Source of the DNA: a virus
Direction: 5' to 3' (one strand)
Length of the DNA: 25,415 nucleotides
Virus record (IMG/VR): IMGVR_UViG_3300015360_000178
Span: 1 to 25,415 of that record
Position 1 is the stretch's first letter; each line of letters begins with the position of its first letter. Below the pieces are notes generated by a model, which saw only the letters and a list, made by a program, of their open reading frames with translations, was not told the origin of the DNA and made no database searches. Both the position numbers and the translations under genes were made by a program. Shown in pieces: positions 5,669 through 25,415 of this stretch.

Positions 5669-5941
5669 ATGAAACAACAAATTATTACAAAGGTTTGTGA
5701 ACGGTGCGAACAGAAGTTTCAAATACCAAACATTAAAGAATCCCGCGCTCGTGAACTGTTGTTGCAGTTCAAACTCTGTACTCATTGTGGTTTTGTAAAA
5801 AGCTCTAAGTATCAAAACAGCGAGAAATCAGGCAGATGTGTAGATTGCTCAATTCCTTTTGCCATTATGAATCACCATTCTAACGGAAGATGTAAGCGTT
5901 GTGATATGAGGCACTTACGCCACAAAAACAAGGGCATTTGA
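5669..5941 (+). CDS. Double zinc-ribbon protein (90 aa)
   Basis: Four CxxC knuckles, CERC (10-13), CTHC (37-40), CVDC (57-60) and CKRC (75-78), give two complete four-cysteine zinc sites. The C-terminus is basic (CDMRHLRHKNKG). It starts 2 nt after the preceding zinc-ribbon gene. Its last codons contain the first copy of the repeated late-promoter element (5917-5947), so the promoter for the portal gene is embedded in its 3' end. DNA or RNA binding is likely from the fold type. The exact role is unknown. Confidence 0.75.
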   Translation: MKQQIITKVCERCEQKFQIPNIKESRARELLLQFKLCTHCGFVKSSKYQNSEKSGRCVDCSIPFAIMNHHSNGRCKRCDMRHLRHKNKGI

Positions 5942-5947
5942 TAGATT
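5917..5947 (+). promoter_or_regulatory. Late-promoter element, copy 1 (portal)
   Basis: ACGCCACAAA (5917-5926) contains the putative -35 box GCCACA (5919-5924). Exactly 17 nt later comes TAGATT (5942-5947), and the portal ATG begins 7 nt after that, so the transcript would start at or within 1-2 nt of the start codon. The same 10-mer with the same spacing is found at 8369, 15611 and 24168. The element overlaps the end of the zinc-ribbon gene. Confidence 0.65.
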
Positions 5948-5954
5948 GCGATGA

Positions 5955-8006
5955 ATGGAAAAACCCTCTACAGAATATTCATCAGACGAATCCCTGTTGC
6001 TTCTTGAGTCTCGATATAAAAATATGACTAAAGCTCAGCTTGCTACTGAGGCGGTCACTATTTCCACTAATCAAGTGATGGCCTGTTTTGAGTTTAAATC
6101 TCCACGTCTGTCTCGTTTGCAGAAGTATTGGGATCTCTATGATGGCAAAGTACCAAAGAAGCTCAGACAGCTTTTTAACGTCCCTATTCCAGTATTCCCC
6201 GGAATGGTAGACACGCTGAATGCTCTTTATGACACTCCTATACAGCTTAAATTTAAGGAAGGTGATGCATCTGACTATTTCAAGGTACTCAAGATCAACG
6301 GTGCATTTCAAAAGGAAGTGATGGACTCAGCTGAGAACAGTAAATGGGATGAGAAACTTACTCTTGCAAGAAGCAACGGAATCATTGAAGGTCGTCCGAT
6401 TCTTGAATATACCGTATCAAGTGATCCTGAATACTACTCTGAACTTAATGTTATTAAGTTAAAGAACTTTAACTTTCAACCACGAGGGGGAGGAAAGCTT
6501 GAAAACCACTTGTTTGCGGGAACTGAAGATGTAGAAAAGACAAAATCTGAGCTTTTTGCAGGGGTAAAAGCCGGATACTACGACAAAACGCAGGTACTTG
6601 AACTAGTGAGTAAGTGTGCAGATCGTGAGTATTTGCCAAATAACAGTAATATCTACGGTGATAAGCTTTCTCGCTTTAAAGCACTGGGACTAGATCCTGA
6701 TAACCACTCGTATGTGGGGGAATCAGTGTATAAACTAGCAAACCATGTTTTAAATATTGATGGCAAACGATATTACCTTTGTTTTCATCCTTGGAGTAAG
6801 ACATGGGTACGTTTTGAACGGCTTACTGATCAGATAAGCTCTGACCTCTATCCGTGGGTAACGTATGCCACTCACCCAAATGACGAAAACTTTTTACCTA
6901 AGAGTTTTGCTGATGATCTGTACCCCGCAGCAGACTCAATTGTAGCAATGGTGAACCAAGAGCTTACTAACCGTGAAAAGCGAAACAACGGTTCTCGAGC
7001 ATTTGATAAAGACATGTTTTCTGATGTACGAAAGCTTGATGAAGCTATGCATCGTCCTGATGGTCTTGTTGCTGCTGATACGAAAGGAGGAACACGAAGA
7101 ATTTCTGAAGGAGTGTATGAGTTTAAAACAGCAGAACTTGGAGGCACAATCAACCTTGCTGACTGGATTATAGGTTCTCTTGGACGCAATACAGGAGCTA
7201 ATGACCTTTCTGCAGGAAGTGTATCTGAAGTATCTAAGAAAGCCTCAGTGACGTTTGCTGAACAAAAATCAGTTTCTAAGCGCATCGCATGGTCCTCAAA
7301 ACCCTTCCAAGGAATGATGTCAGATCTTGGGAAGCGGTTTGTCTATGGCTTGAAAGACCACATGCCGTCAAAGATGGCTATTAAGCTCATGGGTGAAGGA
7401 GGTTGGGAATGGGATGAAGTCACCCGGATTGACCTGAGTACTAAGAAGGATGTTGACGTGCATATTATCTCTACCGATCAGGAAATACAGAATAGCGAAA
7501 TGAAAGCTAAACGCCGTTCTGAAGCACTTGGAATGGTCTTAAATAGCCCTAACATTAACGGTAAAAAGCGTGATGAGGAAATTCTTATCTCTATTGGCGA
7601 TTATGCAGACGAAGAAGTAGCAGAGTTTTTAGACACTAAAACCTATGCAGACCGAAAATCTATTGCCCGAGCGAGTGTTGCTATTGAAATGATTCTCCGC
7701 AGTGAAGAACCAGACTTGTGGTATGGCGCAACCATTCCGTTCATGCAGAAGATTCTTGATTTTGCCAATGATAAACGCGCATCTCTTAAAGATAAATTTC
7801 AGCAACTTGTTGACTACTCAATGGCGCACATAGACATTGTTCAAGAAAATATAGAAAAAGATATTGCAGAACAGATGCGTATTCAAGGACAACAGAACTT
7901 ACAGCAACCGATGATGCAAGGAGAAGAACAGCCATCAGAAGCAGCTAATCCCGGAATGTCGGGAGGCATGAGTAGGGCTATGAGTATGGCAGAAGCAGCA
8001 GTATAA
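5955..8006 (+). CDS. Portal protein
   Basis: This 683-residue protein lies in the portal position between terminase and scaffold/coat. Its length fits the podovirus/P22-type size class. Portal-like features include a helical clip/stem region (residues about 310-345, YPAADSIVAMVNQELTNREK), an aromatic-rich wing with beta strands (KRYYLCFHPWSKTWVRFE), and a glutamine/methionine-rich flexible C-terminus (residues 640-683) as in portal barrels. The family role is the dodecameric DNA channel at one capsid vertex. The start at 5955 was chosen for frame. An overlapping ATG at 5951 is in another frame. The gene lies immediately downstream of a late-promoter element and probably yields a leaderless mRNA. 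Confidence 0.82.
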   Translation: MEKPSTEYSSDESLLLLESRYKNMTKAQLATEAVTISTNQVMACFEFKSPRLSRLQKYWDLYDGKVPKKLRQLFNVPIPVFPGMVDTLNALYDTPIQLKFKEGDASDYFKVLKINGAFQKEVMDSAENSKWDEKLTLARSNGIIEGRPILEYTVSSDPEYYSELNVIKLKNFNFQPRGGGKLENHLFAGTEDVEKTKSELFAGVKAGYYDKTQVLELVSKCADREYLPNNSNIYGDKLSRFKALGLDPDNHSYVGESVYKLANHVLNIDGKRYYLCFHPWSKTWVRFERLTDQISSDLYPWVTYATHPNDENFLPKSFADDLYPAADSIVAMVNQELTNREKRNNGSRAFDKDMFSDVRKLDEAMHRPDGLVAADTKGGTRRISEGVYEFKTAELGGTINLADWIIGSLGRNTGANDLSAGSVSEVSKKASVTFAEQKSVSKRIAWSSKPFQGMMSDLGKRFVYGLKDHMPSKMAIKLMGEGGWEWDEVTRIDLSTKKDVDVHIISTDQEIQNSEMKAKRRSEALGMVLNSPNINGKKRDEEILISIGDYADEEVAEFLDTKTYADRKSIARASVAIEMILRSEEPDLWYGATIPFMQKILDFANDKRASLKDKFQQLVDYSMAHIDIVQENIEKDIAEQMRIQGQQNLQQPMMQGEEQPSEAANPGMSGGMSRAMSMAEAAV

Positions 8007-8009
8007 AAA

Positions 8010-8369
8010 ATGATAAAAGACTTAGAAAAAGTAGCTGAAATATTTCTCAATGACGTAGACGCTGAAGACTTTCAGGAAAACCTGAAGACCCTTAGTGATT
8101 GGGAGAAGTCTCTTGATGAAAACAGGCTGTTCCTGAGTTGGCAGAATCACGACATTACCAAGGATATTTCTAGGATTGCCAAAGAATCCTTTAAAAGTTT
8201 TGCAATGCAACTTATGCAGAACCGCACTCTCACAGAACAGCAACGGTTTTCCTTATGGGCAAAGCAAGATGCATGTCTTTTTATTCTTGAACTGACTGAA
8301 AAAGATGCGAAGCAACAGATACAGCAAATTCTCAAAGAGGTACATATAGCAATCAACACATTCATGTAA
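8010..8369 (+). CDS. Helical hypothetical protein downstream of portal
   Basis: This 119-residue all-helical protein starts 3 nt after the portal stop. Its second half (LTEQQRFSLWAKQDACLFIL, then a Gln/Lys-rich helix) resembles small proteins often found between portal and scaffold genes in short-tailed phage contigs, but I know no assigned function. It has no membrane segment. Its TAA stop (8367-8369) is the first part of the second copy of the repeated promoter element. Confidence 0.7.
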   Translation: MIKDLEKVAEIFLNDVDAEDFQENLKTLSDWEKSLDENRLFLSWQNHDITKDISRIAKESFKSFAMQLMQNRTLTEQQRFSLWAKQDACLFILELTEKDAKQQIQQILKEVHIAINTFM

Positions 8370-8399
8370 CGCCACAAAAAGGGGGTGAATTGTTAGATT
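8369..8399 (+). promoter_or_regulatory. Late-promoter element, copy 2 (acidic protein/scaffold/coat)
   Basis: ACGCCACAAA at 8369-8378 carries GCCACA (8371-8376), followed after exactly 17 nt by TAGATT (8394-8399), the same hexamer as in copy 1. Predicted transcription starts near 8406, leaving a leader of about 26 nt before ATG 8433. This is the only copy whose gene does not start 7 nt after the hexamer. A G5 run (8381-8385) lies in the spacer. Confidence 0.65.
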
Positions 8400-8432
8400 A
8401 CAAAATAAACATTAATTCGATAACAAATATAT

Positions 8433-8687
8433 ATGCCAAAGAAAACGACAGCTGTGGAGGAAGAAATCGTTGAAGAAAAAGTAGAAGCAACTGAGGAAGC
8501 TGTGGAGGAAGAAGAAGAAGAAGAAGTGGAAAAAATCTTAGATAAAAAAGGAAAACTCGGAGCAAGTGGAGTTGTCACAGTGACATGGAGAGGTCAGTCA
8601 CGACAATATACAAAGGAAATACACGGTGACGCTTTCGTAGCTCTAGCAGAGGAATTTGCAGGGAAGAAGGACGCTACTGTGGCGTAG
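8433..8687 (+). CDS. Acidic small structural-region protein
   Basis: This 84-residue protein has an extremely acidic first half (about 20 Glu between residues 9 and 33, including a run of seven), then a compact second half (VVTVTWRGQSRQYTKEIHGD and a helix). The tail looks like a small beta-beta-alpha domain. It lies between portal and scaffold and is the first gene after promoter copy 2. The acidic arm might bind capsid or mimic DNA, but this is speculation. No Shine-Dalgarno sequence precedes the ATG. Confidence 0.7.
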   Translation: MPKKTTAVEEEIVEEKVEATEEAVEEEEEEEVEKILDKKGKLGASGVVTVTWRGQSRQYTKEIHGDAFVALAEEFAGKKDATVA

Positions 8688-8830
8688 TTTGCAGGGGAGG
8701 GGATTATTCTTCTCTCCAACAAACAACACCACGTTGTTTCCCGGATTGCCCGGCTTTAGAGCAATACAGTTTGCATGTTCTGTACGAAAAACATACTTCT
8801 CGTGATTCGAGATTTTTAAAGACATCACTT
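8688..8830 (+). other. Intergenic leader before scaffold
   Basis: 143 nt without a supported gene. It contains GGAGGG/CTCTCC (around 8696-8717), ACAAC/GTTGT (around 8725-8741) and a terminator-like hairpin at 8798-8817. A frame-extending ATG at 8771 for the scaffold gene lies here, but it would place all these stems in coding sequence, so I reject it. Confidence 0.4.
8798..8817 (+). terminator. Weak terminator-like hairpin
   Basis: TCTCG (8798-8802) pairs with CGAGA (8808-8812) around TGATT and is followed directly by TTTTT (8813-8817). The 5-bp stem is short, so termination would be partial. It could set the ratio between the acidic protein and the scaffold/coat transcripts. Confidence 0.4.
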
Positions 8831-9792: not shown

Positions 9793-11073
9793 ATGGGCGC
9801 AAATCTAAATACAATGACATTCAAGACAGTATTCTCAGCCGAATACCAGATGTCACACTTCAAGGAACCTGTATACCAGATCCTTGCAGACACACGTCTT
9901 GAATCAGCTCTTACAAAAGGGCAGACAATAGCACGATCATTTGCTTCTGACGTACAAGTAAACGATATGGGAGCTGACGGAAGTTACTCTACTCAGGCGA
10001 TTACAGACACACAAGAAACATTGGTAATTAACAAGGAAAAAGAAGCTTCGATCTACATCAAGAAACTTGATGAGCTACAAGCACACCTTCCACTCAAGCA
10101 GAAGTACGGACGTAAGCTTGCTAATGCTCTCATCAACCAGATTGATGGTGACGTATTGCTTGCAGCGTATCAAAATGCAGGAACAACTCTTGATGATGGC
10201 TCATTTGCAGGAACTGCCGGAAACGGACACACAGCAACTGCATCTAACATCGCAACAGTGTTCACTACTGCGATGCAAAAACTCCGCCTGAAGAACGTGG
10301 TGTACAACAAGCGATTCCAAGGAGGAATGAAATTGGAAGTTCCTGAGGGAATGCCAATTGCAGTTATTTCTCCTGAAATCCTTTCGTACATTGAATTGTA
10401 TCTTGGAGGCAAGGACACACTTCTTGGAGATCAGGTTTCCCGAAACGGATACTCTGGTTACTTCATGGGGTTTGAACTCTTTGTTTCAAATGGACTTCCA
10501 TGGACTGCAACACTTGAACTTCCAACAATTCCAACAGCTGGTGACACTTTGGTACTCAATGGTGTTACTCTAACCGCAGCAGCAGATGGTGCTGCATCTG
10601 CAGCAGGTGAATATTCAATTCAAGGAACTGTTGATTTAGGTGCAGCTTCATTGGTTAAATTAATCAATGGTACTGGTACACCGGGTGCTGACGAATATAT
10701 CGAAGTTTCAGCTGCAAACCGCAGACTTCTTAAAAATATTACAGCAACATATGACGCAGCAACAAACATCTTGACTCTTGTATCTTCAGGATGGGGAACA
10801 GTTGTTGTTTCAGAAACATTCACTGCTTCAGGAAATATCTTCACAGCAGGAAAGCAGGTATTGCGCTCACTCTTTGCCCTTTCAAAGTCACTTTCACTTG
10901 TAATTCAAAAAGAACCGTCAATGGAGGAAAACTTTGTTTCAGGCAAGATTGGACGAGACTACATCGCATGGACAGTATACGGAATTAAGGTCTTCACAGA
11001 TCAGGCCCCAATGATTGTTTCATACTCTGTACTTTCATCTAGCTTCACTGCTTCAGACGCAACACCACAGTAA
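9793..11073 (+). CDS. Major capsid protein with inserted beta domain
   Basis: This 426-residue coat protein follows the scaffold gene. The N-terminal arm, a spine-helix-like segment (LPLKQKYGRKLANALINQID, 100-118), the A-domain-like segment (PIAVISPEILSYIELYLGG) and the C-terminal IGRDYIAWTVYGIKVFTDQA fit an HK97-fold coat. Residues about 243-352 look like an insertion: GDTLVLNGVTLTA...GEYSIQG...ASLVKLINGTGTPGADEYIEVSAANRR. This is the 'GDt..iNGvtfta' small beta domain common in phage decoration and tail proteins. It splits an otherwise ordinary coat just before the segment FALSKSLSLVIQKEPSMEEN. It probably projects from the capsid surface. No promoter element or Shine-Dalgarno sequence is evident before the ATG. 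Confidence 0.85.
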   Translation: MGANLNTMTFKTVFSAEYQMSHFKEPVYQILADTRLESALTKGQTIARSFASDVQVNDMGADGSYSTQAITDTQETLVINKEKEASIYIKKLDELQAHLPLKQKYGRKLANALINQIDGDVLLAAYQNAGTTLDDGSFAGTAGNGHTATASNIATVFTTAMQKLRLKNVVYNKRFQGGMKLEVPEGMPIAVISPEILSYIELYLGGKDTLLGDQVSRNGYSGYFMGFELFVSNGLPWTATLELPTIPTAGDTLVLNGVTLTAAADGAASAAGEYSIQGTVDLGAASLVKLINGTGTPGADEYIEVSAANRRLLKNITATYDAATNILTLVSSGWGTVVVSETFTASGNIFTAGKQVLRSLFALSKSLSLVIQKEPSMEENFVSGKIGRDYIAWTVYGIKVFTDQAPMIVSYSVLSSSFTASDATPQ

Positions 11074-13730: not shown

Positions 13731-15611
13731 ATGCAAGATTTTACCGTTTCTTCTTTTGGTGGACTCAATACCGCAGTACGCGATATTAAGACTTTAAAAC
13801 CGGGCATTTCGCCTGATTCTTTAAACTGGCTTACATCTAAGTTTAAAGACTCTATTGAACTACGCAGAGGCTATGCACGACTTGGAGGTACAGAGGTTAC
13901 AGGAAACGGAAAGATAACAGGACTTGGAGTGAGTATCCGTTACGATGGAACGCAAGTAGTACATTTTTCATACGATAGAAAAGTCAAATACTATGATGCG
14001 GTTTTGGATGACACTGTAGAGGTAAGTACTGATCTTTTACCTGTAGCTGCAGATAGTGAAGATGTATGGTTTGAGCCGTATCAGGGGCTTGCAGGATCTT
14101 TTCAATTTTTTGGATCTCCCAATTCAGGAGTATATAAAATACCTTCTGCAAACCCCGGCAGTCATGTTGACCAATTAGTAAATAACTACCGATGGGGGGT
14201 CTTTCATGTAGGTCAAAACAGAGTGTTTGCAGGACAGAGAAATGGAATTACTGCAGGGAATAACGACAAAACAGGACTCTATCTTTCGTACATTGACAAA
14301 GACCAACTTTCTGACTTTACACAAGTAACAGGGGAAGCTGTTGGTGCTTCAGGATCAATAGTGTACTCAGGAACACTTGCGGTGGTTGGCTCGGGTAAAA
14401 CCATCATGTATACATCTTTTGCTGAAGCAGGAGGTGAAACGCTTGTAGATGACCGCAATGGCATCCTTGTAGGAAATGCAGGATCTACTGGAACAATAAA
14501 CTATGCAACAGGCGCATATAGCATCACCTTCAACCATTCAACCGTTGGTGCAGTTACAGTCTCGTACTATCACGAAACCGCAACATCTACAGGAATTCTT
14601 GATTTTACAGGTTCAGGTAACGGACAGGGTAAGTCTTTTAGACAAGATGATGCGGGAGGTGCATTGATGGCAATATTCAACATCAATACCATTGAGTATT
14701 GCTTTCATTTGCTTAAAACATGGCAGTTTACCTCAACGCTTAATGACACTACCTCAACCAACTTGCCATATAGAAATGTGGGTATCCCTTATATTGATTC
14801 CGCTTGGCAAACACCTGAGGGTATTGTATTTGCTGATCTTTCACGTCCTGCAGACCCTAAATTCAGACTCATGGAAGTACTTGCCGGAACTACAGTAGAT
14901 ACCATTGAACCACGTGCTATCTCTGACGCACTCGATCTTTCGCCGTTTGCTTTTGACTACTGTGTAGCTTTTCGTTGGGGAGATTACGAAATATTCTGCG
15001 TTCAAGAGAAGGTTGCTGAAGTTGCTAATGCATTCAACTCTGTAATGTTTGTGCGTAATGTTGTCTCTAAAACATGGGACAGACTCGATTACTCTGCAAG
15101 TAAGCTACGAGAATTTGCAGGGACACTTATCGCAGGAGACTCTATTTCTAACAATGTCTACACGCTTTTCTCTGGTTTTGATGAGGACGGAGATGTTATT
15201 GAAAATTACTGGACTTCAGGCGACCTTAATCTAGGTTCTGAGAATCTAAAGAACTGCAGAAGGATGGTTATAGAAGGGCTTATACAGCCAGATCAAGAAC
15301 TTAAAATATCACTTTCTTACGATGGGGGCACATTTACTGAACTATTTACCGTCAAAGGTAATGCTGACTATGTGGACTCAGGCATAAATACCTATATAGG
15401 GGGTACAACAATCGGCTCTAAGGTAGTTGGAGGTGGTGGAAGCACAGTAGCTCATCCGTATGAGGTTGATTTCAAAATAAACTCAGATCGTTTTATGAAC
15501 GTCCGTATAAAAGTAGAAGCTCTTGCAATTGGATATGTATCAGTAAATTCCTTTACGTTTAAAGACATCCGCGATAAAGGCAGAAAAAATTTACCTAGCC
15601 GAACAAGATAA
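13731..15611 (+). CDS. Tail nozzle / tail tubular B-like protein
   Basis: This 626-residue beta-rich protein begins with the nozzle-like signature FTVSSFGGLNTAVRDI and ELRRGYARLGG, followed by beta-propeller repeats (RVFAGQRNGI..., YDGTQVVHFSYDRKVKYYDA). This fits P22 gp10 and T7 gp12 type nozzle proteins that close the short tail. Residues about 205-295 look like an inserted Ig-like beta domain (STGTINYATGAYSITFNHST). The gene starts 2 nt after the adaptor stop (TAAATATG), supporting an adaptor-nozzle pair. Its TAA stop contributes the first base of promoter copy 3. Confidence 0.75.
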   Translation: MQDFTVSSFGGLNTAVRDIKTLKPGISPDSLNWLTSKFKDSIELRRGYARLGGTEVTGNGKITGLGVSIRYDGTQVVHFSYDRKVKYYDAVLDDTVEVSTDLLPVAADSEDVWFEPYQGLAGSFQFFGSPNSGVYKIPSANPGSHVDQLVNNYRWGVFHVGQNRVFAGQRNGITAGNNDKTGLYLSYIDKDQLSDFTQVTGEAVGASGSIVYSGTLAVVGSGKTIMYTSFAEAGGETLVDDRNGILVGNAGSTGTINYATGAYSITFNHSTVGAVTVSYYHETATSTGILDFTGSGNGQGKSFRQDDAGGALMAIFNINTIEYCFHLLKTWQFTSTLNDTTSTNLPYRNVGIPYIDSAWQTPEGIVFADLSRPADPKFRLMEVLAGTTVDTIEPRAISDALDLSPFAFDYCVAFRWGDYEIFCVQEKVAEVANAFNSVMFVRNVVSKTWDRLDYSASKLREFAGTLIAGDSISNNVYTLFSGFDEDGDVIENYWTSGDLNLGSENLKNCRRMVIEGLIQPDQELKISLSYDGGTFTELFTVKGNADYVDSGINTYIGGTTIGSKVVGGGGSTVAHPYEVDFKINSDRFMNVRIKVEALAIGYVSVNSFTFKDIRDKGRKNLPSRTR

Positions 15612-15641
15612 CGCCACAAAGCATAGACTATTAGCTAATAT
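15611..15641 (+). promoter_or_regulatory. Late-promoter element, copy 3 (fibre 1)
   Basis: ACGCCACAAA (15611-15620) contains GCCACA (15613-15618). After 17 nt comes TAATAT (15636-15641), and ATG 15649 follows exactly 7 nt later. The spacer holds a perfect 10-nt palindrome, ATTAGCTAAT (15630-15639), which could bind a dimeric regulator. Confidence 0.65.
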
Positions 15642-15648: not shown

Positions 15649-17286
15649 ATGTTTGATTCAATTTTAGGAAAAATAGCAAGCTTCATAGCTATTCCGTTTG
15701 TTTTTATTGCCAGTTTACTAGCTCCCACTCCTATTGCTCCTGAGCCTGTGCCACAATTTCCTGTATATGAAGAAATTGAACTTGGGGTTGCACTGCCTCA
15801 GGTAGCTGCTGTTTTTGAGACATCTCTAGCTGCCCCGATTACCGCTGCAGCAACTACTATGACCCTTACCGCTAACTCTGTGCGCGGAGGCGGTTCTGTT
15901 TCAGGATTTAATTGCTTTACTGTTGACGAAGGGAGTGCTCAAGCTGAGTTCATCTGTGGAACTGCTTCAGGAACTGCTATAACAGGTCTTACGAGGGGTA
16001 TTAGCCCACTGGACGGTATTACTGAAGACGCAGATTTAAAATTTGCTCATAGACGCGGGTCCAATGTAAAGATTACTGATTTTCCGCTTATTCAACGTAT
16101 TAAGTCTCAGAATAATGGTGAGGGTACATTTGCAAACCCTATTTCATATGAAACTGGTGTTGGTCCAGTAAGTAATAGCGATCTTGCTGATAAAGAGTAT
16201 GTTTTGAGCGTTGTAAGTGGCGGTACTGTTTCTTTTGATAAAGAAATTGTAGCTGGTACTGCAGGTGAAACAATATCGGCAGGGAATCTCATTTACCTTC
16301 TTAATACTGACGCTGAGTGGTACAAAGTTGATACTGACACCGAAGCAACTGTTAAAAATAGACTTCTTGGTATCGCACAAGGAGCAGGCACAAATGGAAA
16401 CACTGTAACTGGCGGTGTACTTATTAGTGGTCTTGATACGAACCAATCTGGTCTTGTTGCGGGGACGTATTACTATGCAGGGGCTACTGCAGGAGCAATA
16501 AGTACAACTGTTTCAGGGCGTGTTGTAGGTCAGGCACGAAATACAACTAATCTTTATTTCAGTCCAGCAGGTATTGCTTCAAGTACAGCGTCTCTCAGAT
16601 TTTCAAATACATATACAGGGACAAATACATTTACAGCCACTACTACCGTAGGCACTTCAACATTAATTATAGGTTCTACTCCCGCGTATCAGATTGGAAA
16701 AAATAGGCAAATAATCACATCAACAGGAACTTCAACTTTATCTGTCCCTACAGGAATTAATAAGTTGTGGGTAGAAGCTCTGGGAGCTGGTGGCACAGGC
16801 GGGGGTTGTACTGCAGGAGGTTCAAACGGGTCTGGTGGTGGTGGTGGAGGTGGTGGAGGGTATGCACAAGAAATTGTAAGCGTTGCAGGAACTTCATCTA
16901 TTCAAGTGGTCGTTGGTGCAACACCAGGGGGAACAACTCGTTTTGGGTCTGTTGGTGCAGCATTCATGACAGTTACGGGGGGAGGCACAGGCATTGAAAC
17001 TACTCCAGGACAAGGCGGTACTGCTACTGGTGGTGACATAAATGTTGGGGGGGGCGATGGGCAATCAGGAGCGAGGGATTCAACGTCTTTCGTTGACGCA
17101 GGGTTCGGGGGATCTGGAGCCAGCTCTATGTATGGTGGTAGCGGAGGAGGTTCTGCATATACTGGCACTCAAGTAAATGGTCTTGCAGCTTCAGGATATG
17201 GCGCAGGTGGAGGCGGGGGTGGATGTAGCAACGGTTCAGCTACAGGAGGTGAAGGAACACAAGGTTTAATTATCGTTCGTTGGTAA
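15649..17286 (+). CDS. Tail fibre/adhesin with glycine-rich C-terminus
   Basis: This 545-residue protein starts with a hydrophobic segment (FIAIPFVFIASLLAP, residues 12-26), which looks like a signal peptide or anchor. A Pro-rich linker and beta domains typical of fibre N-termini follow (AAATTMTLTANSVRGGGSVSG, GLTRGISPLDG). From residue about 375 the protein is dominated by polyglycine (GSGGGGGGGGGYAQ) and ends in GTQGLIIVRW, the pattern of glycine-rich tail-tip domains that present receptor-binding loops. It is preceded by promoter copy 3. It contains a G8 tract (17047-17054) that could slip and vary the adhesin. It follows the nozzle gene and is the likely receptor-binding protein. Confidence 0.75.
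   Translation: MFDSILGKIASFIAIPFVFIASLLAPTPIAPEPVPQFPVYEEIELGVALPQVAAVFETSLAAPITAAATTMTLTANSVRGGGSVSGFNCFTVDEGSAQAEFICGTASGTAITGLTRGISPLDGITEDADLKFAHRRGSNVKITDFPLIQRIKSQNNGEGTFANPISYETGVGPVSNSDLADKEYVLSVVSGGTVSFDKEIVAGTAGETISAGNLIYLLNTDAEWYKVDTDTEATVKNRLLGIAQGAGTNGNTVTGGVLISGLDTNQSGLVAGTYYYAGATAGAISTTVSGRVVGQARNTTNLYFSPAGIASSTASLRFSNTYTGTNTFTATTTVGTSTLIIGSTPAYQIGKNRQIITSTGTSTLSVPTGINKLWVEALGAGGTGGGCTAGGSNGSGGGGGGGGGYAQEIVSVAGTSSIQVVVGATPGGTTRFGSVGAAFMTVTGGGTGIETTPGQGGTATGGDINVGGGDGQSGARDSTSFVDAGFGGSGASSMYGGSGGGSAYTGTQVNGLAASGYGAGGGGGGCSNGSATGGEGTQGLIIVRW
17047..17054 (+). repeat. G8 homopolymer in fibre gene
   Basis: Eight consecutive G in an AT-rich genome, read as Gly codons in the glycine-rich tip. 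Loss or gain of one base would truncate the fibre about 80 residues early. Confidence 0.6.
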
Positions 17287-17287: not shown

Positions 17288-19114
17288 ATGTCAAAGCTGT
17301 CACTCACAAAAGGAGGAGTAGTTACAAACAAAGGCTCAAAAGCTTCTACCTTTACTGACTCAAAAACAAAACAGACTTCCTATGTAGATCCTAGTTATGT
17401 ACCACGCACAAACAAAAGCACTCCAACTCCAACGGTCGGAGGTTCAACAACTTCAGCGAGTACTCCAGTAGTAACTCCATCAACAGATCTTTCTACAGCT
17501 CTTGGAAATGCAAAATCTCAGGCTGATACAATTCAACAGAATCTCAATGACAGTATTGCATCAGGTGAAATAGAATCTGCCAGTACACCTTCACCAGATG
17601 AATACTATCCACGCTATACACCGCCTGAAGAAGAACAGGCTCCTACTGGTCCATCGACTGAGGAAGTGCAGAAGGATATGATGAAAGATGCACAGGCTCA
17701 AATCAATTCCCTCAATCGAATGTACAAAGATCGTCTTGATGAGCAACAGACTATTAATCAGAGCAGAAGCAGAGAAACTTCATCGGGAAACACTCTGACA
17801 GGTCTTGCCGGTTCTTCAGAAGCAAATGTAAACGCACAAAGAACTGACAGCCAAAATCAGGCAGCAAATAACGCTATACGAAACCAGCAAGAAACGGCGG
17901 TACAAACTGTTCTTTCTGACATTCGTACTGCAGCTGTAACAGAAGGTCGAGAACTTCGCACTGAAGCGCGTCTTGATGCTGAAACTAAGGAAAAAAATAG
18001 AGTTACACGAGAAGCTGATGCTCAGAAACATATTGCTACGCTTGCGCAGGCTGGTGCAACTATTGATGGTTTCAAAAAAACAGATCCTGAAGGCTACTCA
18101 TACCTTGCAAAACAGGCAGGAGGTGAGCAGATGATAAAAGCGATGTTTACACTCAATCGTCCACAAGAAACTATTTTGGATAAGCGCATTGAGGGAGGAA
18201 AGTACGTTATTGCCTACCAGAATCCTCTTGATGGCAAAACACGCATTGAAACGCTCGATCTAGGCTTACCACCACAATATACAAAGACTATTGACGCGGG
18301 GGACCGTCTCATGGCTATTCCCGATGGATGGGATGGTGATCCTTCAAAGCTCATTACTATCAATAAAGGGCTTTCGCCAGAGCAGAAAGAAATAAGCGCT
18401 CGTCAAACTAGAGAAGGAACTGATACAGGCATAGGCAATAGTAGCTCATACGGCAGTGACCTTGATGCAATTATAGGTTCTACTCTTTCAACAATTCCTA
18501 GCAAATTTGGACAGGCGACTTTCCAATCGCAAATTAATAAGTCTAGAAACGACCAAGACAAGATCAACTTGATTGCCTCACAGGTATTGAAAGGACAACC
18601 TGCGGAACTGAGAACAGACTTTGCAAATCAAGCGGTGGGTATTTCAAATATTGATAAAGCTATTCAAGAGCTAGACTCAGGTTTACAAACTGGATTCCTT
18701 GATAGTAAATTGCAGTATGTAGCCAACTTTTTTGGTAGAGATTATGACCCTAAACTTGCAAAAATAAATAGTCTCATTATAGCAGCAATCCAACCATACC
18801 GAAACTCGGTTACAGGTGCTGCATGGGGGACTCAAGAGGATGGCGAATACCAGAGCTTGTTTGGTTCTACAAAATACTCACCTACAGAACTACGTTCACG
18901 TCTTGTGAGTGTAAAGGAAATTCTCAAAGATAAGTCAGCACAAGGTTTGAATACCTTTGTTAATCCTATGGGATATTATGACAATCAGTTTGACTCAGGA
19001 ACGTATGAGCCAGTAGGTACAAACGTACAAGAAAAAGCGGAAGCAGCCGGATATGACTATGCAGCTATGAGAGCTGATGGTCTTTCTGATGAGGATATTG
19101 CATCAAGTTTATAA
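17288..19114 (+). CDS. Large internal/ejection-type virion protein
   Basis: This 608-residue protein starts 1 nt after the fibre gene (TAATATG). The N-terminal 110 residues are low-complexity and rich in Ser/Thr/Pro (STPTPTVGGSTTSASTPVV). A long helical region (about 120-260) is rich in Gln, Asn and Glu. The C-terminal part contains IIAAIQPYRNSVTGAAWGTQ and YSPTELRSRL, a pattern seen in short-tailed-phage internal proteins that enter the host with the DNA. No membrane helix is evident. Paired with the next, larger gene it likely forms the ejection apparatus. The function is inferred from order and composition. Confidence 0.6.
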   Translation: MSKLSLTKGGVVTNKGSKASTFTDSKTKQTSYVDPSYVPRTNKSTPTPTVGGSTTSASTPVVTPSTDLSTALGNAKSQADTIQQNLNDSIASGEIESASTPSPDEYYPRYTPPEEEQAPTGPSTEEVQKDMMKDAQAQINSLNRMYKDRLDEQQTINQSRSRETSSGNTLTGLAGSSEANVNAQRTDSQNQAANNAIRNQQETAVQTVLSDIRTAAVTEGRELRTEARLDAETKEKNRVTREADAQKHIATLAQAGATIDGFKKTDPEGYSYLAKQAGGEQMIKAMFTLNRPQETILDKRIEGGKYVIAYQNPLDGKTRIETLDLGLPPQYTKTIDAGDRLMAIPDGWDGDPSKLITINKGLSPEQKEISARQTREGTDTGIGNSSSYGSDLDAIIGSTLSTIPSKFGQATFQSQINKSRNDQDKINLIASQVLKGQPAELRTDFANQAVGISNIDKAIQELDSGLQTGFLDSKLQYVANFFGRDYDPKLAKINSLIIAAIQPYRNSVTGAAWGTQEDGEYQSLFGSTKYSPTELRSRLVSVKEILKDKSAQGLNTFVNPMGYYDNQFDSGTYEPVGTNVQEKAEAAGYDYAAMRADGLSDEDIASSL

Positions 19115-19115
19115 C

Positions 19116-21911
19116 ATGCCAATTGACTTAGAAAAATACAAAAAATTACCCACACAAACTCCATCTAACTCAGGTGGTGTAGATATTTCTAAGTATCGTA
19201 AGACTCCTGTTTCTTTTAAATATCCTGAGGTACAAACTGCGGAATCACAACAACAGAAGATTTCAAAATATCAGGAAGAAGCACGTCAGTCAGAAGCAGT
19301 ATCAAAGAAAGCAAACTCATTTGGTGGAATGTTGGGTAATTTTGGCAAGGCATTTGTGGGAACAGTTGCCAACTCTGAAGTAGGGCTTGGAGAATCAATC
19401 TCTAAGATTATTCAAGCAGGGAGTAAAGTTAATTTGAAGTCACAATCTGACAACATAACTGCACAAAACAATTTAAATTCCCTCATCCGGCAAAAGAAAG
19501 CCCGAGGTGAAGACACGAGCACACTAGAACGCATGTATAACAACACTGTCTCACATACAGAAAGTTTAAATAAGAATATCAAAGAGGAAGTTAGTTTGCC
19601 CTCAACTCAGAAAGTTCTCGGTCAGTTAGGAGGCACTGCGTTGGATGTACTTACTGCAGGTACATACGGAAAGGCTGCTCAGGGAATGAAAACAGGGCAA
19701 CTGGCAAGTAAAATTCCACTTGTGAGAGGTGTAGCAACAGCTACAGGAGCGCCAGAATTAGGACAAATGGCTGCTAGAAAAGCAAGTGGCATAGGAACGT
19801 GGAAAGGTATTGGAAACATTGCAAAGGGTGCAGGCGCTGGATATGCAGTTGATGTCACACAAGGTCTACAAGGTGCTCGAGGTGAAAATAGAGAGGGAGG
19901 TAAAGCTTTTATACCAGGAATGGGTACAGCTCTTGGTAGTACACTTCCAATAATCTCTGAAGCAGGACAAACTATCGCTAACAAATTCGATCCTCAAACA
20001 AAAGGTGATCTTCTTATTACAAGACGACATAAAGAGCTAGAAAAACTTGATGCATATAAAACACTCAAAACTGCAACTGAAAAGGGGCGTGAGAGAGGAA
20101 TAGATGTAAAGAAAGTTCTTGCCGAAACTGATGTACTTCATGGTTCTGTTGACAACAGGGGGACAATCAATACTAAGGGCGATGGGGGAGCAATTGAACA
20201 GTATACTCGTCAATTTATTGATGGAAACGAAAAGCTTGTAAGCGAGGCTCTTAAAAAAGAGGGGGTGTCCATTTCTCCTGATGTAATACGGCTCAAGCTT
20301 GAAAAAGCAGTAATGGATGCTGGCATTGAGGGTAAAGCACTTGTTCAGGCAAAAAAGAGCATAGCTGACGAGCTGTCAGGCTATGCACTTCGATCAAGTG
20401 ATAACGGTGTTATCCCTGTGTCTACACTCCACGATGCAAAAATTGACAAATACAACAGCATAAACTTCTTTACAGAGGGAAACACAAAAAAATACGATAA
20501 GACTATTGCTAAAGCTCTTAAAGAGCTTGTAGAAACTAATACAAAATCTGTGGACGTATCTGAAGTTAATAAAGAGCTTTCTAGGCACTTTGCTGTTATT
20601 GACTACCTTAACCGTCTTGATGGAAAGAAAGTAGAAGGAGGGAAACTTGGAAAATACTTTGCTCAGTCTGTAGGAGCAATCGTAGGATCTCATTTTGGTC
20701 CACTTGGGGCAATCGTTGGAGCAACAGTGGGGGGGGGAATCAAAGGAAACTTGATGTCTCGTGCATTTGGAGGACAAACAGGACGTACTATTCCAACTGC
20801 CGAGTCAATAAAAGACGCTGTCAAATTTAAAGATGCGAAGCCTTTAGAGTTACCACCAGCTCAGGGCATTATAAATAGCACCCAAACTCCAAATCCAATA
20901 AAACCTACAAACAACAACGCCCCTAGAAATATTAACCCTCTGACTGCAAAAACAGCGGGGGATATATCTAACTCCTCTGCATACACTAAACCTGCTATGA
21001 ATAAAACACAGAATACCCCAGCACCGATGAGTAAAAATGGCATACCCACCAAAATACCCCTAATAAAAAAAAAGTCAAATAAGGGACTAGGTACGTTACT
21101 AAAAAGTAAACTCCCAGAAAATCTTAAAAATAACTTCGATGAGTTTACCAGAGACAAAAATCTATCCCCTCAAGACGCTGAAATTCAAGAGAAAAGCATA
21201 GGAAAATACCTCGAAAAGAAGAATGAATTGCTACAAGAAACGCTCAAGACTAATGGAAAGATAGCTAATACCGATGAACAACGTAAGTTCTTTAAAGACA
21301 TTGGATATAATGGTGCTAACTCTGCTGCAGTTCAGGAAGCGGCAAGTCAACTGAATAAGGATCAGTGGAGGCATCTACTTAAAAACAACTCTGAACCAGA
21401 TGCTGTTTTATATGCGGGTGGCTCTGGATCGGGTAAAACCTCAATAGTAGGCAAGCTGATGCCTGATATTGAAGATACAGCGTCTGCAGTTCTTGATGGA
21501 AATTTGTCTACATACAGCAGTGCTAAAAAACGAATTGCAGAAGCGAAAGAAGCAGGGAAGAACCTTAAGTTTATTTATGTGTATCGTGAACCTGTAGACG
21601 CTTGGGTGAACGGTGTGATTGCGCGAATGTTAAATAATGCAAAGGAAGGAGGAAGGGTTGTTCCACTGTCTGTATTCACGGAGAATCATAAGGGGTCTTA
21701 TGATGTTATAAAGAAGTTGAAAGCTGAGTATGGCGATGATGTAACAACACTTGATAATTCACTCGGTAGCGGTAATGAAGAATTTATGTCTCTCGACAAG
21801 TTTAACTCGATACAGTATAGTGACATTAAGTCGAACCTATTAACAGCAACTAAGCAACTCTTAGAAAATGGAACAATCAACAAAAAACAATATGACGCAC
21901 TCGTCAAATAA
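19116..21911 (+). CDS. Giant ejection-type protein with C-terminal zeta-toxin-like kinase domain
   Basis: ATG 19116, 1 nt after the previous stop, is preferred over an in-frame ATG at 19077 that overlaps the upstream gene. Of 931 residues, residues 1-110 carry YKK/KYRK-type repeats and a Gly-rich hydrophobic segment (SFGGMLGNFGKAFVGTVANS). Residues 520-548 form a glycine zipper (GAIVGSHFGPLGAIVGATVG) likely to insert in membrane. Residues 590-680 are a disordered linker. The C-terminus (from about 760) is a P-loop domain with Walker A GGSGSGKTS (768-776), Asp794 in LDGNLSTY, and YVYREPVDAW followed by GRVVPLSVFTENH, resembling zeta-toxin family kinases of phage and CPR polyvalent proteins. 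Known zeta toxins phosphorylate UDP-GlcNAc; substrate and activity are unproven here. Confidence 0.7.
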   Translation: MPIDLEKYKKLPTQTPSNSGGVDISKYRKTPVSFKYPEVQTAESQQQKISKYQEEARQSEAVSKKANSFGGMLGNFGKAFVGTVANSEVGLGESISKIIQAGSKVNLKSQSDNITAQNNLNSLIRQKKARGEDTSTLERMYNNTVSHTESLNKNIKEEVSLPSTQKVLGQLGGTALDVLTAGTYGKAAQGMKTGQLASKIPLVRGVATATGAPELGQMAARKASGIGTWKGIGNIAKGAGAGYAVDVTQGLQGARGENREGGKAFIPGMGTALGSTLPIISEAGQTIANKFDPQTKGDLLITRRHKELEKLDAYKTLKTATEKGRERGIDVKKVLAETDVLHGSVDNRGTINTKGDGGAIEQYTRQFIDGNEKLVSEALKKEGVSISPDVIRLKLEKAVMDAGIEGKALVQAKKSIADELSGYALRSSDNGVIPVSTLHDAKIDKYNSINFFTEGNTKKYDKTIAKALKELVETNTKSVDVSEVNKELSRHFAVIDYLNRLDGKKVEGGKLGKYFAQSVGAIVGSHFGPLGAIVGATVGGGIKGNLMSRAFGGQTGRTIPTAESIKDAVKFKDAKPLELPPAQGIINSTQTPNPIKPTNNNAPRNINPLTAKTAGDISNSSAYTKPAMNKTQNTPAPMSKNGIPTKIPLIKKKSNKGLGTLLKSKLPENLKNNFDEFTRDKNLSPQDAEIQEKSIGKYLEKKNELLQETLKTNGKIANTDEQRKFFKDIGYNGANSAAVQEAASQLNKDQWRHLLKNNSEPDAVLYAGGSGSGKTSIVGKLMPDIEDTASAVLDGNLSTYSSAKKRIAEAKEAGKNLKFIYVYREPVDAWVNGVIARMLNNAKEGGRVVPLSVFTENHKGSYDVIKKLKAEYGDDVTTLDNSLGSGNEEFMSLDKFNSIQYSDIKSNLLTATKQLLENGTINKKQYDALVK
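20729..20737 (+). repeat. G9 homopolymer in ejection-protein gene
   Basis: Nine consecutive G encode part of the glycine zipper (TVGGGIKG). Slippage here would remove everything downstream, including the zeta-like domain. Confidence 0.6.
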
Positions 21912-22035: not shown

Positions 22036-22152
22036 TTTCTTTTTATTGACAAGTCGATCACTCAGTCAGGGTTATTAACTGCAAAACTTAACGAAACAAA
22101 AGCTGTATTTTAGCCTTATTTGTTACTTGTCCACACGTTTCTTTGTACTATA

Positions 22153-22181
22153 TTGACATGGGGTGGCAAGGGGTGTATACT
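22153..22181 (+). promoter_or_regulatory. Strong sigma70-type promoter
   Basis: TTGACA (22153-22158) and TATACT (22176-22181) are separated by 17 nt, nearly consensus. Transcription would start near 22188, about 25 nt before ATG 22213. The same intergenic region (22036-22212) also contains a TTGACA at 22046-22051 without a good -10. This is the only consensus -35 in the window. It differs from the GCCACA-type late elements and suggests early or constitutive expression of the next genes. Confidence 0.8.
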
Positions 22182-22212
22182 GTAGTTAAGTTTAAAAGGT
22201 AATAAAACAACT

Positions 22213-22539
22213 ATGACTACACAAGCATCAAATCAAATTGTCTCCTGCACATGGGGTTACAGCATGTCAATTGTAGAGTTTTTTGAAATCATCAAGAAAA
22301 CTCCAAAGACAGTAGTGCTCCGAAAACTCAAGCAAACATGCAACGAAACTGGTTTCCTTTCAGGTCATGCTATGCCAATTGAAAAGGTGTACGAGAATCG
22401 AGATGGAAAGTATGAGGAAGTCCGGGCATACAAACGCGAGTATAGCGGGCGGACCACATTTATCAGCAATAAGAATGGCTACAAACAATACTTCGACATT
22501 TGGAATGGTCAGCCTAAGTACTATAACCATTGCGATTAA
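22213..22539 (+). CDS. Conserved hypothetical protein (SxGY/WGY family)
   Basis: This 108-residue protein carries SCTWGYSMSIVEFFEIIKKT, KTVVLRKL and a C-terminal YFDIWNGQPKYYNH. The arrangement matches small proteins that I recall from plasmids and phages ('SWGY.qtnvdFy.Vv', 'vtlrk', 'lWdGkp.yys'), frequently next to DUF3560 or DNA-modification genes, as it is here. No function is established. It is the first gene after the consensus promoter at 22153-22181 and joins the DUF3560 gene through a TAATATG junction. Confidence 0.7.
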   Translation: MTTQASNQIVSCTWGYSMSIVEFFEIIKKTPKTVVLRKLKQTCNETGFLSGHAMPIEKVYENRDGKYEEVRAYKREYSGRTTFISNKNGYKQYFDIWNGQPKYYNHCD

Positions 22540-22540
22540 T

Positions 22541-23242
22541 ATGAATCATTACGAAATAAAACAACAAGAACGCAAAGAGAGATACTTAAATAAATCAGTT
22601 ACTCTCTCACAAAAATCAAGCAAACTACATGATGCAGGAATGGATGCTCTCAAACAAATTCCTTTCGGACAACCAATTCTTAGGGATCACTACAGTGCAA
22701 AAGGTGACAGGGCGTACAGAGCAAGAGCAGTAGGGAAAATTGAAAAGTCATTTGAGATAAAAGATAAAGCTAATCACTATGCTCAGAAAGCTGAGAGTGT
22801 TGGAACAGGGGGTATTTCTTCAGATGACCCTGATGTAGTATCCAAACTACAGGAAAAACTTGAAAAACAGCTTAAAGACCACGAAACAATAAAGCGTTTA
22901 AACTCAGAGGCTCGTAAAAATGGCACAGAAAAGCCATGTCCTGCTTACATGATTTCTAACAGCAACGGTAGAATCAATGCAACTAAAGAACGTATAAAAC
23001 AGCTCACTGCTAAATCTACAATGCAGTTAAGAGAAACTATAGTCGGAGTTGGTTTTACTTGTAGGGAAGATTTAGAGGAAAATAGAATTATGTTTGAGTT
23101 TGAAGGGAAACCAAACGAGGAAATCCGTAAAATTCTAAAGAGCTACGGATTCAAATGGAGTCCTACACGCAATGCATGGGTACGACAGCTCACAAATTCA
23201 GGGCGATACGCAACAGATCAAGTTATAAGTATATTAAAATAA
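22541..23242 (+). CDS. DUF3560 family protein
   Basis: This 233-residue protein shows strong DUF3560 signatures: IPFGQPILRDHYSAKGDRAYR (residues 40-60), ANHYAQKAESVGTGGISSDD (77-96), then a coiled-coil segment. A small C-terminal domain follows (NEEIRKILKSYGFKWSPTRN) that resembles a nucleic-acid-processing accessory fold. The start at ATG 22541, 1 nt after the upstream stop, is chosen over a long in-frame extension from 22367 that merely shadows the previous gene. The family is of unknown function and is common on plasmids and phages. The last codons overlap a degenerate late-promoter element for the lysozyme gene. Confidence 0.85.
   Translation: MNHYEIKQQERKERYLNKSVTLSQKSSKLHDAGMDALKQIPFGQPILRDHYSAKGDRAYRARAVGKIEKSFEIKDKANHYAQKAESVGTGGISSDDPDVVSKLQEKLEKQLKDHETIKRLNSEARKNGTEKPCPAYMISNSNGRINATKERIKQLTAKSTMQLRETIVGVGFTCREDLEENRIMFEFEGKPNEEIRKILKSYGFKWSPTRNAWVRQLTNSGRYATDQVISILK
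23208..23237 (+). promoter_or_regulatory. Degenerate late-promoter element (lysozyme)
   Basis: ACGCAACA (23208-23215) has the same one-base change as the 11057 element. GCAACA (23210-23215) is followed after 16 nt by TATTAA (23232-23237), with ATG 23244 6 nt later. Weaker than the exact copies, but at the same place relative to the start codon. Confidence 0.38.
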
Positions 23243-23243
23243 T

Positions 23244-23594
23244 ATGATAAATAAAATTAAAAACACAGTAAACACGATAGGGAACTCTTGGACTCTTAAC
23301 CACAAAATGCTTTTGTTCTCACTGTCACTACTTACTGCAATGTTATTTCAAAGTTTTGCAACACTTCTTCCGTCACTCCCAACTGAAGTGATCGCATATG
23401 AAGCAGTGAGAACAGAGTTTGTATCTGATACAGATACAATAAGTACAGCAAAGACTCAGCTTGAGAATGCAAAAAAGCTCCTTACTGCAGAAGAAGCCTT
23501 ACTATTATCAGAGATAGATGCACACGAAAAGCGACTTGAGGAAATACGAGAGATTAAAATGTCTTTTTCACAAGCTCCAGATCAGCAAAATTAG
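23244..23594 (+). CDS. Membrane anchor and coiled coil of a split lysozyme (N-terminal frame)
   Basis: 116 residues. Residues 22-43 (MLLFSLSLLTAMLFQSFATLL) form a signal-anchor-like segment with basic residues before it. Residues 65-105 form an acidic/basic coiled coil (STAKTQLENAKKLLTAEEAL). The frame ends at TAG 23592-23594. The next frame back (-1) is open from 23558 and continues into a lysozyme-like domain whose catalytic region begins at once. Anchor plus coil plus lysozyme domain is the expected layout of an anchored (SAR-type) endolysin, so the two frames probably make one protein, by frameshifting or because of a one-base sequence error. Confidence 0.7.
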   Translation: MINKIKNTVNTIGNSWTLNHKMLLFSLSLLTAMLFQSFATLLPSLPTEVIAYEAVRTEFVSDTDTISTAKTQLENAKKLLTAEEALLLSEIDAHEKRLEEIREIKMSFSQAPDQQN

Positions 23595-23932
23595 TACGAG
23601 CAATCTGGGGCGCAGAAACAAACGGAAAATTCGTGTGTACAGAACAAGGTAAGTCAGGGGAATTACGCTCATGTCTGCAATACCTTGACTCTACATGGAA
23701 GCTATGGAGTCAGGAATACATTGGATATGTTGCCCCTGTAACTGAGGTCAATGAAATGTATGTTGCTACTCTGAAGGTACAGGAGTGGATCGACTCAGGA
23801 GCAAGTGATTGGAAGGTATTCCTTTATTGGAATGGCGGGGATGGACGGGAAAAGAGGGGGGTTAATCAGTATGGTATCGAATATAATACCGTACAATATG
23901 CTCAAAAAGCATTAGTATATCTCAGCAGATAA
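23591..23932 (+). CDS. Lysozyme/transglycosylase-like domain (C-terminal frame)
   Basis: From TTA 23591 the frame reads LVRAIWGAETNGKFVCTEQG, a lysozyme-fold start with a candidate catalytic Glu (23615-23617) in GAETNGKF. Then come a Gly-Glu...CLQYLDSTW segment, NEMYVATLKVQEWI, and WNGGDGREKRGVNQYGIEY, typical of peptidoglycan lytic transglycosylase domains. The only local start codon, GTG 23633, lies after the Glu and would yield an inactive fragment, so translation very likely comes from the preceding frame by a -1 shift near 23586-23591. Role: cell-wall degradation at lysis or entry. Confidence in the fold is good; enzyme class is less sure. Confidence 0.7.
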   Translation, partial: LVRAIWGAETNGKFVCTEQGKSGELRSCLQYLDSTWKLWSQEYIGYVAPVTEVNEMYVATLKVQEWIDSGASDWKVFLYWNGGDGREKRGVNQYGIEYNTVQYAQKALVYLSR

Positions 23933-23944
23933 ACAATCATAGAG

Positions 23945-23950
23945 TATAAT
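23945..23950 (+). promoter_or_regulatory. Possible -10 element (TATAAT)
   Basis: A perfect TATAAT lies 23 nt before ATG 23974, with a G6 run just downstream (23953-23958). No recognisable -35 box is found (TCAGCA at 17 nt spacing). If used, it would drive the 64-residue gene. Confidence 0.35.
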
Positions 23951-23973
23951 CAGGGGGGTATTAATTTTAATTT

Positions 23974-24168
23974 ATGGAACAATTTACTATTGGCGAGATT
24001 TTTCGTGGCAAGATGCTTTTGAACAATGAAGGTAAGCCGTATACTGCACAGGCAACAGTCTCAAAAGTATTGTCTAACTATCCTTATACAGTCAAAAAAA
24101 CACCGTTTGGTGATGCAAAGATGTTCTCAAAAAAGACAATTGAAGAGTTAAACAATCGTTGGAAGTAA
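23974..24168 (+). CDS. Small hypothetical protein (64 aa)
   Basis: This 64-residue protein begins MEQFTIGEIFRGKMLLNNEG and has strand-like and helical segments ending in KKTIEELNNRWK. It has no membrane segment or cysteine cluster. I do not recognise the family. It sits between the lysozyme and the second fibre, and its TAA supplies the first base of promoter copy 4. Confidence 0.6.
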   Translation: MEQFTIGEIFRGKMLLNNEGKPYTAQATVSKVLSNYPYTVKKTPFGDAKMFSKKTIEELNNRWK

Positions 24169-24198
24169 CGCCACAAAACAGACTCCTTTTGCCATAAT
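24168..24198 (+). promoter_or_regulatory. Late-promoter element, copy 4 (fibre 2)
   Basis: ACGCCACAAA (24168-24177) with GCCACA at 24170-24175, a 17-nt spacer, then CATAAT (24193-24198). ATG 24206 begins exactly 7 nt later, the same geometry as copies 1 and 3. A short TGCC/GGCA inverted repeat lies at 24190-24203 across the -10 region. Confidence 0.65.
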
Positions 24199-24205
24199 CG
24201 GCATA

Positions 24206-25415
24206 ATGTTCTCAATAAAAATACTTTCTGTCGCTATTCTTGGCATTTTTGTAACTCTATCAGGTTATTCTTTTTATACTCAATCACAAACTAATGAACC
24301 ACTAGCTGTTTTAGGAGGGGGACCGGGGACTATCAATCAGCTCCAACAGTGGATAGCGACTGTAGGTGGCATTGTAAAACTATCAAGCTCTACAGCAAGT
24401 ATTCGCGTCCCTAGTCTTATAAACTGCGATACTATTGATACGGATAGTGACGGAGACTTTGCCTGTGGGACAGACGCTACAGGTGGCGGAGGAGGCGGGG
24501 GTTCTATTTCCACATCATCAATTCCAAGTGCGGGGAATCTAGCATATTGGACAAGTAACAAAGCACTCTCACAAGTAGCAACGGGGACACTTACCGAAAC
24601 TGTAACTGGACTGGCTTTGTCTGCTACGCGAGGGCTTGTAGGAGGTTCTTCAATTCTTTCTTTAGATGCAGGACGGGTAATCCCATTAAGTGCATCAACA
24701 ACAAATTGGAATGGTTTTTATGACGTTCCGTCTACTCGTATTACTGCGGGAACAGGGATTGACTGGTCAAGCAATACACTTAATGGTGTCTATACCGCAG
24801 GTGACGCACTTACACTCACGGGAGAGGACTTTAATTTTGATGGAGGCATTAGTCCAGCAGGAGCGTTGGGCGGGACATGGGCTTCTCCAACAGTGGATGA
24901 TGATGGTCATGCTCATACCGCTTCAACTATCTCAGGGTTAGGCACTGCCGATATTTCAGGACTCGATATTTCTGACGATACTAATCTTGCGGTCACTTCT
25001 CCTGTGGTTCTTACGGGAGACACACTGAGCATTTTGGCAGATGGTATAGGTGATACGCAGCTCGCATTTAATACAGGACAGACACTTACTACTGCAGGGA
25101 CTCCAACTTTTGCAACACTTGATACAGGTTTTGGTGCAAATGAGCTATACGATATGAATCAGCATGTACAGACTACTGATCGTGTGACTTTTGTTCATTC
25201 GACAACGACATCTGCTGCAATAACAGGACTTACTTCTGCACTTGTGCAAACAGGGGCATCAGGCATTACTGAAGAATATGCGGGGAGTGGAACATGTACC
25301 AATCAGTTTGTAACGGTTCTTTCCGCACTTGGTATTGGGACGTGTGCTTCAATCAATAATGCACAGTGGTCTGGTACTGATCTCTCTGTTGCAAACGGAG
25401 GTACTGGGCTTTCAA
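24206..25415 (+). CDS. Second signal-anchored fibre-like protein, 3' partial
   Basis: The frame from ATG 24206 stays open to the window end (403 codons), so the gene is truncated at the right. Residues 5-24 (KILSVAILGIFVTLSGYSFY) form a hydrophobic N-terminal segment. Polyglycine (GGGGGGGS, about residue 93) and Ser/Thr/Asp-rich repeats follow: WASPTVDDDGHAHTAS, GLDISDDTNLAVTSPVVLTG, GIGTCASINNAQWSGTDLSV, ANGGTG. Such repeats are typical of fibre shafts of phages from candidate phyla. It follows promoter copy 4. With fibre 1 it would give the virion two membrane-targeted, low-complexity fibres. The receptor-binding tip, if any, lies outside the window. Confidence 0.7.
   Translation, partial: MFSIKILSVAILGIFVTLSGYSFYTQSQTNEPLAVLGGGPGTINQLQQWIATVGGIVKLSSSTASIRVPSLINCDTIDTDSDGDFACGTDATGGGGGGGSISTSSIPSAGNLAYWTSNKALSQVATGTLTETVTGLALSATRGLVGGSSILSLDAGRVIPLSASTTNWNGFYDVPSTRITAGTGIDWSSNTLNGVYTAGDALTLTGEDFNFDGGISPAGALGGTWASPTVDDDGHAHTASTISGLGTADISGLDISDDTNLAVTSPVVLTGDTLSILADGIGDTQLAFNTGQTLTTAGTPTFATLDTGFGANELYDMNQHVQTTDRVTFVHSTTTSAAITGLTSALVQTGASGITEEYAGSGTCTNQFVTVLSALGIGTCASINNAQWSGTDLSVANGGTGLS

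Follow-up and report, generated by a model that had tools for sequence, protein, structure and literature searches.

We consider here a stretch of viral DNA, positions 1 to 25,415 of IMG/VR record IMGVR_UViG_3300015360_000178 (one strand, 25,415 nucleotides, referred to as the window), in which the 10-mer ACGCCACAAA recurs ahead of late genes for portal, small acidic and fibre-like proteins. Comparison with related genomes establishes a conserved promoter-like anatomy for this element, and a predicted helix of a small zinc-finger protein, whose gene immediately precedes the portal gene, co-varies with it. The explanation that we consider probable is that the zinc-finger protein acts as a late activator, recognising a private box at the −35 position and recruiting the host sigma-70 RNA polymerase, and that the late starts are mostly leaderless.

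A repeated element ahead of the late genes

There are exactly four exact copies of ACGCCACAAA in the window, at positions 5917, 8369, 15611 and 24168, all on the + strand, in agreement with the initial annotation; no copy lies on the − strand, and a reversed control 10-mer is absent. The accompanying estimate that about 0.02 copies are expected by chance holds for a 10-mer named in advance but fails as a measure of significance, because four other 10-mers (AAGAAGAAAA, TGATGGCAAA, GAAGAAGAAG and TGCTTCAGGA) likewise occur four times on the same strand. The copy number of ACGCCACAAA alone is therefore not significant, and its significance comes instead from its placement, its geometry and its conservation in relatives.

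Checked position by position, GCCACA within the box is followed at all four sites by exactly 17 nt and then a −10-like hexamer, as originally described; three of the hexamers fit TAnnnT and one is CATAAT. All four boxes, their hexamers and the genes that they precede are on the + strand. Box 1 (5917–5926, GCCACA at 5919–5924) and its TAGATT (5942–5947) are followed after 7 more nt by the ATG of the first late gene, whose portal-like product (5955–8006) is assigned by its position after the terminase large subunit (3829–5502, a TerL match) and by synteny, without a PHROG match of its own. At box 2 (8369–8378, GCCACA at 8371–8376) the TAGATT (8394–8399) is separated by 33 nt from the ATG of a small acidic protein (8433–8687), a leadered arrangement; this gene heads an operon with a scaffold-like gene and the major capsid protein gene (9793–11073, + strand, phrog_267). 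The hexamers of box 3 (15611–15620, GCCACA at 15613–15618; TAATAT at 15636–15641) and box 4 (24168–24177, GCCACA at 24170–24175; CATAAT at 24193–24198) again stand 7 nt before an ATG, that of fibre-like protein 1 (15649–17286, phrog_863 tail fibre assembly) and that of fibre-like protein 2 (24206–25414, assigned by synteny and running off the contig). The ATG lies exactly 38 nt from the box start at boxes 1, 3 and 4, and ahead of the acidic-protein gene the interval is 64 nt. The claim that all copies lie at gene junctions stands for boxes 2 to 4, each of which begins on the final A of the preceding gene's TAA stop, but not for box 1, which is not intergenic: it lies within the last codons of the 90-amino acid zinc-finger gene (5669–5941), a location that is syntenic in relatives.

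Conservation and concerted variation in related phages

Capsid, terminase and portal searches gathered about 35 related contigs of viral origin, together with one belonging to a bacterial metagenome-assembled genome (MAG); three related contigs are 42–44 kb long, and early regions are absent from most. Among cultured phages there is no relative for the zinc-finger protein or the portal, and for the capsid there is one, at 26.5%. Gene order is common to the relatives. Absence of the element at syntenic positions had been named at the outset as grounds for abandoning a promoter assignment; it is present there, recurring in about 30 related contigs. An unbiased motif finder, also proposed then, recovers it as well: a two-block search of the regions upstream of the portal, acidic and fibre-1 genes, with the box not supplied and spacers limited to 16–18 nt, returned [A][C][G]nnACAAA, a spacer of mostly 17 nt (58 of 76 sites, the remainder lying within the permitted 16–18), and TAnnnT. 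The −10 block fits the sigma-70 type (frequencies T.91, A.95, T.98), and at −35, where a sigma-70-type promoter has TTGACA, there is nnnACA with a genome-specific nnn, GCCACA in the window. When each genome was searched with its own box and −10, matches in nearly every contig fell at the portal, acidic and fibre-1 genes and, where it is present, at fibre 2, and rarely elsewhere. In the related genomes the element conforms to the initial description, that of a late promoter with sigma-like spacing whose −35 box is unusual, its activity being predicted from this anatomy.

Every genome has its own version of the box, common to its sites. The window has GCC-ACA, L011 has GCC-ACG at four sites and L046 GCT-ACG at four; L012 and L048 have GCG-ACA; L013, L014, L042 and L044 have TCC-ACA; L005, L055 and L050 have GTA-ACA; and L008, L007 and L027 have GTT-ACA, ACC-ACA and GAG-ACA respectively. 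The core triplet is identical in 96.5% of within-genome pairs and in 14.5% of between-genome pairs, a comparison in which some boxes were located using the private box itself; repeated with motif-finder calls alone and no hand edits, the values are 84% and 12%, with mean mismatches of 1.41 within and 3.47 between genomes, and none of 5000 shuffles gave a value as low. There are about nine core triplets in this one phage family, and the core changed at least 11 times on the portal tree. Because the same change appears at three or four separate loci, a shared reader is indicated.

The start geometry is equally consistent. At three window sites the 38 nt from box start to ATG place the predicted transcription start on the ATG and the box exactly at −35, and across the phage genomes 41 of the 48 sites at portal and fibre 1 have a −10 that ends 6–7 nt before the ATG, the spacing of a leaderless message. 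From this spacing, the messages of portal, fibre 1 and fibre 2 are probably leaderless. One relative, with a capsid 90% identical, is in MAG nzgw467 (L067–L078), a Patescibacteria (Paceibacteria, UBA5272) genome reported with prophages (PMC12455944). In 235 kb of this genome TANNNT peaks at exactly 6 nt before the ATG (28 of 177 genes, against about 6 at other distances), the −10 carries an extended TGn, and Shine-Dalgarno-like motifs precede only 5% of genes, so that nzgw467 itself appears to use leaderless messages widely. The phage would then keep a start geometry common in nzgw467 and alter only the −35 part, with the host link coming from this one relative, whose contig may be in the MAG through binning and not through integration.

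A candidate reader encoded at the first box

The gene at 5669–5941 (+ strand) encodes a double zinc-finger protein with four CxxC pairs (CxxC..CxxC, CxxC..CxxC), our candidate for the box reader. Of 32 records searched, 27 have the gene, which immediately precedes portal in the relatives that cover this region; among the five without it are short fragments as well as L051, L053 and L054, which are deep relatives. An AlphaFold2 model (mean predicted local distance difference test score, pLDDT, 89.6), analysed with DSSP, has a predicted C-terminal helix at residues 76–88 (codons at 5894–5932). Searches of Pfam, PHROGs and PDB gave weak sub-threshold Pfam and PHROG matches and a best PDB sequence E of 0.14, and with the whole model Foldseek returned none at E ≤ 0.001 and VIA a best Z of 2.5, for a LIM domain; a homolog search of the phylum, covering 380 genomes, gave only the one already known. 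The portal box coincides with codons of its own proposed recognition helix, CGC CAC AAA encoding R84-H85-K86, so that the putative reader and its first target would be physically one DNA stretch.

We scored covariation column by column in the alignment as mutual information with the box core; ten further phage proteins from the same genomes served for comparison, and non-portal sites supplied the box data wherever a genome offered them. The portal box includes neither codon 76 nor codon 80 and reaches only the third base of codon 83. For the box core, residues 76, 80 and 83, which form one helix face, beat all 1605 i,i+4,i+7 triplets of the other phage proteins, and the helix window 76–83 is surpassed by 3 of 2427 windows, or by 5 of 2272 once close relatives are thinned. 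The substitutions are legible: genomes with GCC or ACC boxes have K or N at 76, those with TCC have H76, those with GTA have T or S76 in two separate lineages, and all those with GCG have R80. Covariation of helix and box in these alignments is thus supported statistically.

From these observations we infer that the zinc-finger protein binds the box and recruits polymerase. Host RNA polymerase with its main sigma would read the TAnnnT −10 and begin transcription on, or within a few bases of, the ATG of the portal gene and of both fibre genes, with the −35 contact made through the phage box instead of TTGACA. The C-terminal helix would enter the major groove at −35, and the remainder of the protein would hold the polymerase, for which sigma region 4 or the beta flap is a plausible contact. 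With a single protein reading all sites, box and helix would change together, giving each phage lineage a private −35 code.

The initial annotation had suggested a phage sigma factor or an activator; the zinc-finger gene and its covariation support the latter, whereas a sigma factor is without support. Among 13–15 phage records, three of them of 42–44 kb, sigma region 4 gave no match over cut-off to PF04545 and none to PF08281, a search that a highly diverged sigma could escape, and a phage-encoded sigma factor was rejected on this result. An Ogr/Delta activator was likewise rejected, with Ogr_Delta (PF04606) matching 0 of 13 phage records and its control matching in E. coli. The zinc-finger family has no MotA or AsiA match in full Pfam and PHROGs, a scan that covered this family alone.

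Some neighbouring features deserve mention. Not all promoters in the window bear the box, since TTGACA-17-TATACT at 22153–22181 (+ strand), a canonical sigma-70-like promoter by consensus match only (11 of 12 positions), stands ahead of the non-late genes at 22213–23932. Behind it, between late operons, is a DUF3560 gene (22367–23242; PF12083, E 3e-25), in what looks like a separately expressed cargo region. A 944-amino acid late-operon protein (19077–21911) matches Zeta_toxin (PF06414, E 6.7e-13) in its C-terminal part. Early regions of L011, L046, L050 and L026 hold integrase-like genes and ATPases that by eye resemble conjugation coupling proteins, which suggests temperate phages with conjugation-like genes.

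Alternative readers and known promoter systems

Among deeper relatives, L051 has neither the zinc-finger protein nor the box at these sites. A diverged zinc-finger gene lies between terminase and portal in G382 and in contig C23, a second relative in nzgw467; in G382, AATAATAGC is confined to three sites, those of portal, the acidic position and fibre 1, and C23 has GTTGYC 16 nt before the −10 at two, a weak two-site case. In G382 (contig C38, L084/L085) an AAAGGTC-type sequence also recurs shortly before several ATGs, possibly a ribosome-binding or other element. G386 is without a detectable zinc-finger homolog; three of its sites carry GTAATGCACGCAATTTTG, and a fourth carries a shorter form. 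Its late-gene elements (contig C2, L086/L087) are at joined coordinates 10193, 13441, 18317 and 25132. At portal and fibre 1 GTAATGCACGCAATTTTG is part of an inverted repeat TGCA..TGCA, which suggests a different, perhaps dimeric reader. Shared phage-specific upstream elements on late promoters look general in the group, and the reader is apparently not always of the same kind.

Several observations weigh against the zinc-finger protein as reader. Distances over the zinc-finger region without its tail barely beat phylogeny (partial Mantel 0.03–0.20), and the tail had to be treated apart, its last residues being encoded by the portal box itself and their covariation trivial. The face 76/80/83 was picked after inspection of the data, single capsid and portal columns score equally high, and the well-supported independent pairs number only four, with agreement in all or nearly all of them (sign test p 0.125). 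The promoters and a trans factor changing with the box could therefore be real and the reader another phage protein, such as an unrecognised sigma-like or helix-turn-helix protein among the early genes. Concerted variation demands a shared reader and names none; early genes are absent from most contigs and could include such a regulator; and since G386 shares an element at the same sites with no zinc-finger homolog, another reader must exist somewhere in the wider group. We nonetheless regard this alternative as rather unlikely, given that the sigma region 4 search of 13–15 phage records found nothing over cut-off and that the zinc-finger helix has the expected covariation pattern.

It is improbable that the host's own or an alternative sigma reads the box, with phage differences reflecting host differences: the −10-to-ATG spacing does match the leaderless genes of nzgw467, but upstream regions of that genome with a −10 at 5–8 nt show the extended TGn and no box-like −35, the window also contains a TTGACA-type promoter, and C23 uses its different GTTGYC in the same MAG. 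A role in packaging, replication or translation rather than transcription start, to which the overlap of three of the four copies with a stop codon might point, is very improbable given the fixed distance to TAnnnT and ATG at operon starts only; the box is moreover upstream of the predicted start and hence outside a message begun there. To chance or coding constraint we give almost no credence. Four other 10-mers reach the same count and the portal copy is coding, so copy number alone would not dispose of it, but it is rejected by conservation in relatives: about 30 contigs have the element in fixed geometry at syntenic sites, most of them non-coding.

If the zinc-finger protein is indeed the reader, it would offer a first handle on the gene-expression switch of Patescibacteria phages, on whose late promoters a literature search found no work. 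A DNA-recognition code that relates amino acids to bases at −35 could be read from the natural matched variants of box and protein, the promoter sets would be insulated from the host and from each other, and the reason for code change among relatives, whether avoidance of superinfecting or resident relatives, or host interference, would become testable.

The T4 middle promoters provide a close comparison in layout, with a phage box replacing the −35 and the −10 kept, host RNA polymerase with sigma-70, and a phage DNA-binding activator; the MotA box, which a double-wing domain recognises, has its centre near −30, and AsiA remodels sigma region 4 (PMC6755090). The likeness, one of sequence anatomy, is the box in the −35 place with the −10 kept. 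The differences are that the box here is exactly at −35, that the candidate is a zinc-finger protein, unrelated to MotA and AsiA by the tests made and with no AsiA-like partner identified, and that all boxes of a phage differ together from those of its relatives. The candidate was not placed in any tested activator family, and the chances seem evenly balanced that it represents a new late-activator class, in which a minimal double zinc-finger with rapidly evolving specificity replaces sigma's −35 reading and has its first target in its own helix codons. Ogr/Delta proteins of P2/P4 are, like the reader proposed here, small zinc-binding phage-encoded late activators, but their sites are further upstream, near −55, and there is no Ogr_Delta match in the phage records searched. 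Phage sigma factors such as SPO1 gp28 direct temporal classes of promoters with altered hexamers, unlike this phage group, in whose searched records no sigma region 4 was found over cut-off and whose −10 stays sigma-70-like. In the T7 group a single-subunit polymerase is the sole reader, and from one relative to another the promoters change as a set; the promoters described here share that concerted change, but their −10/−35 geometry is that of a cellular polymerase.

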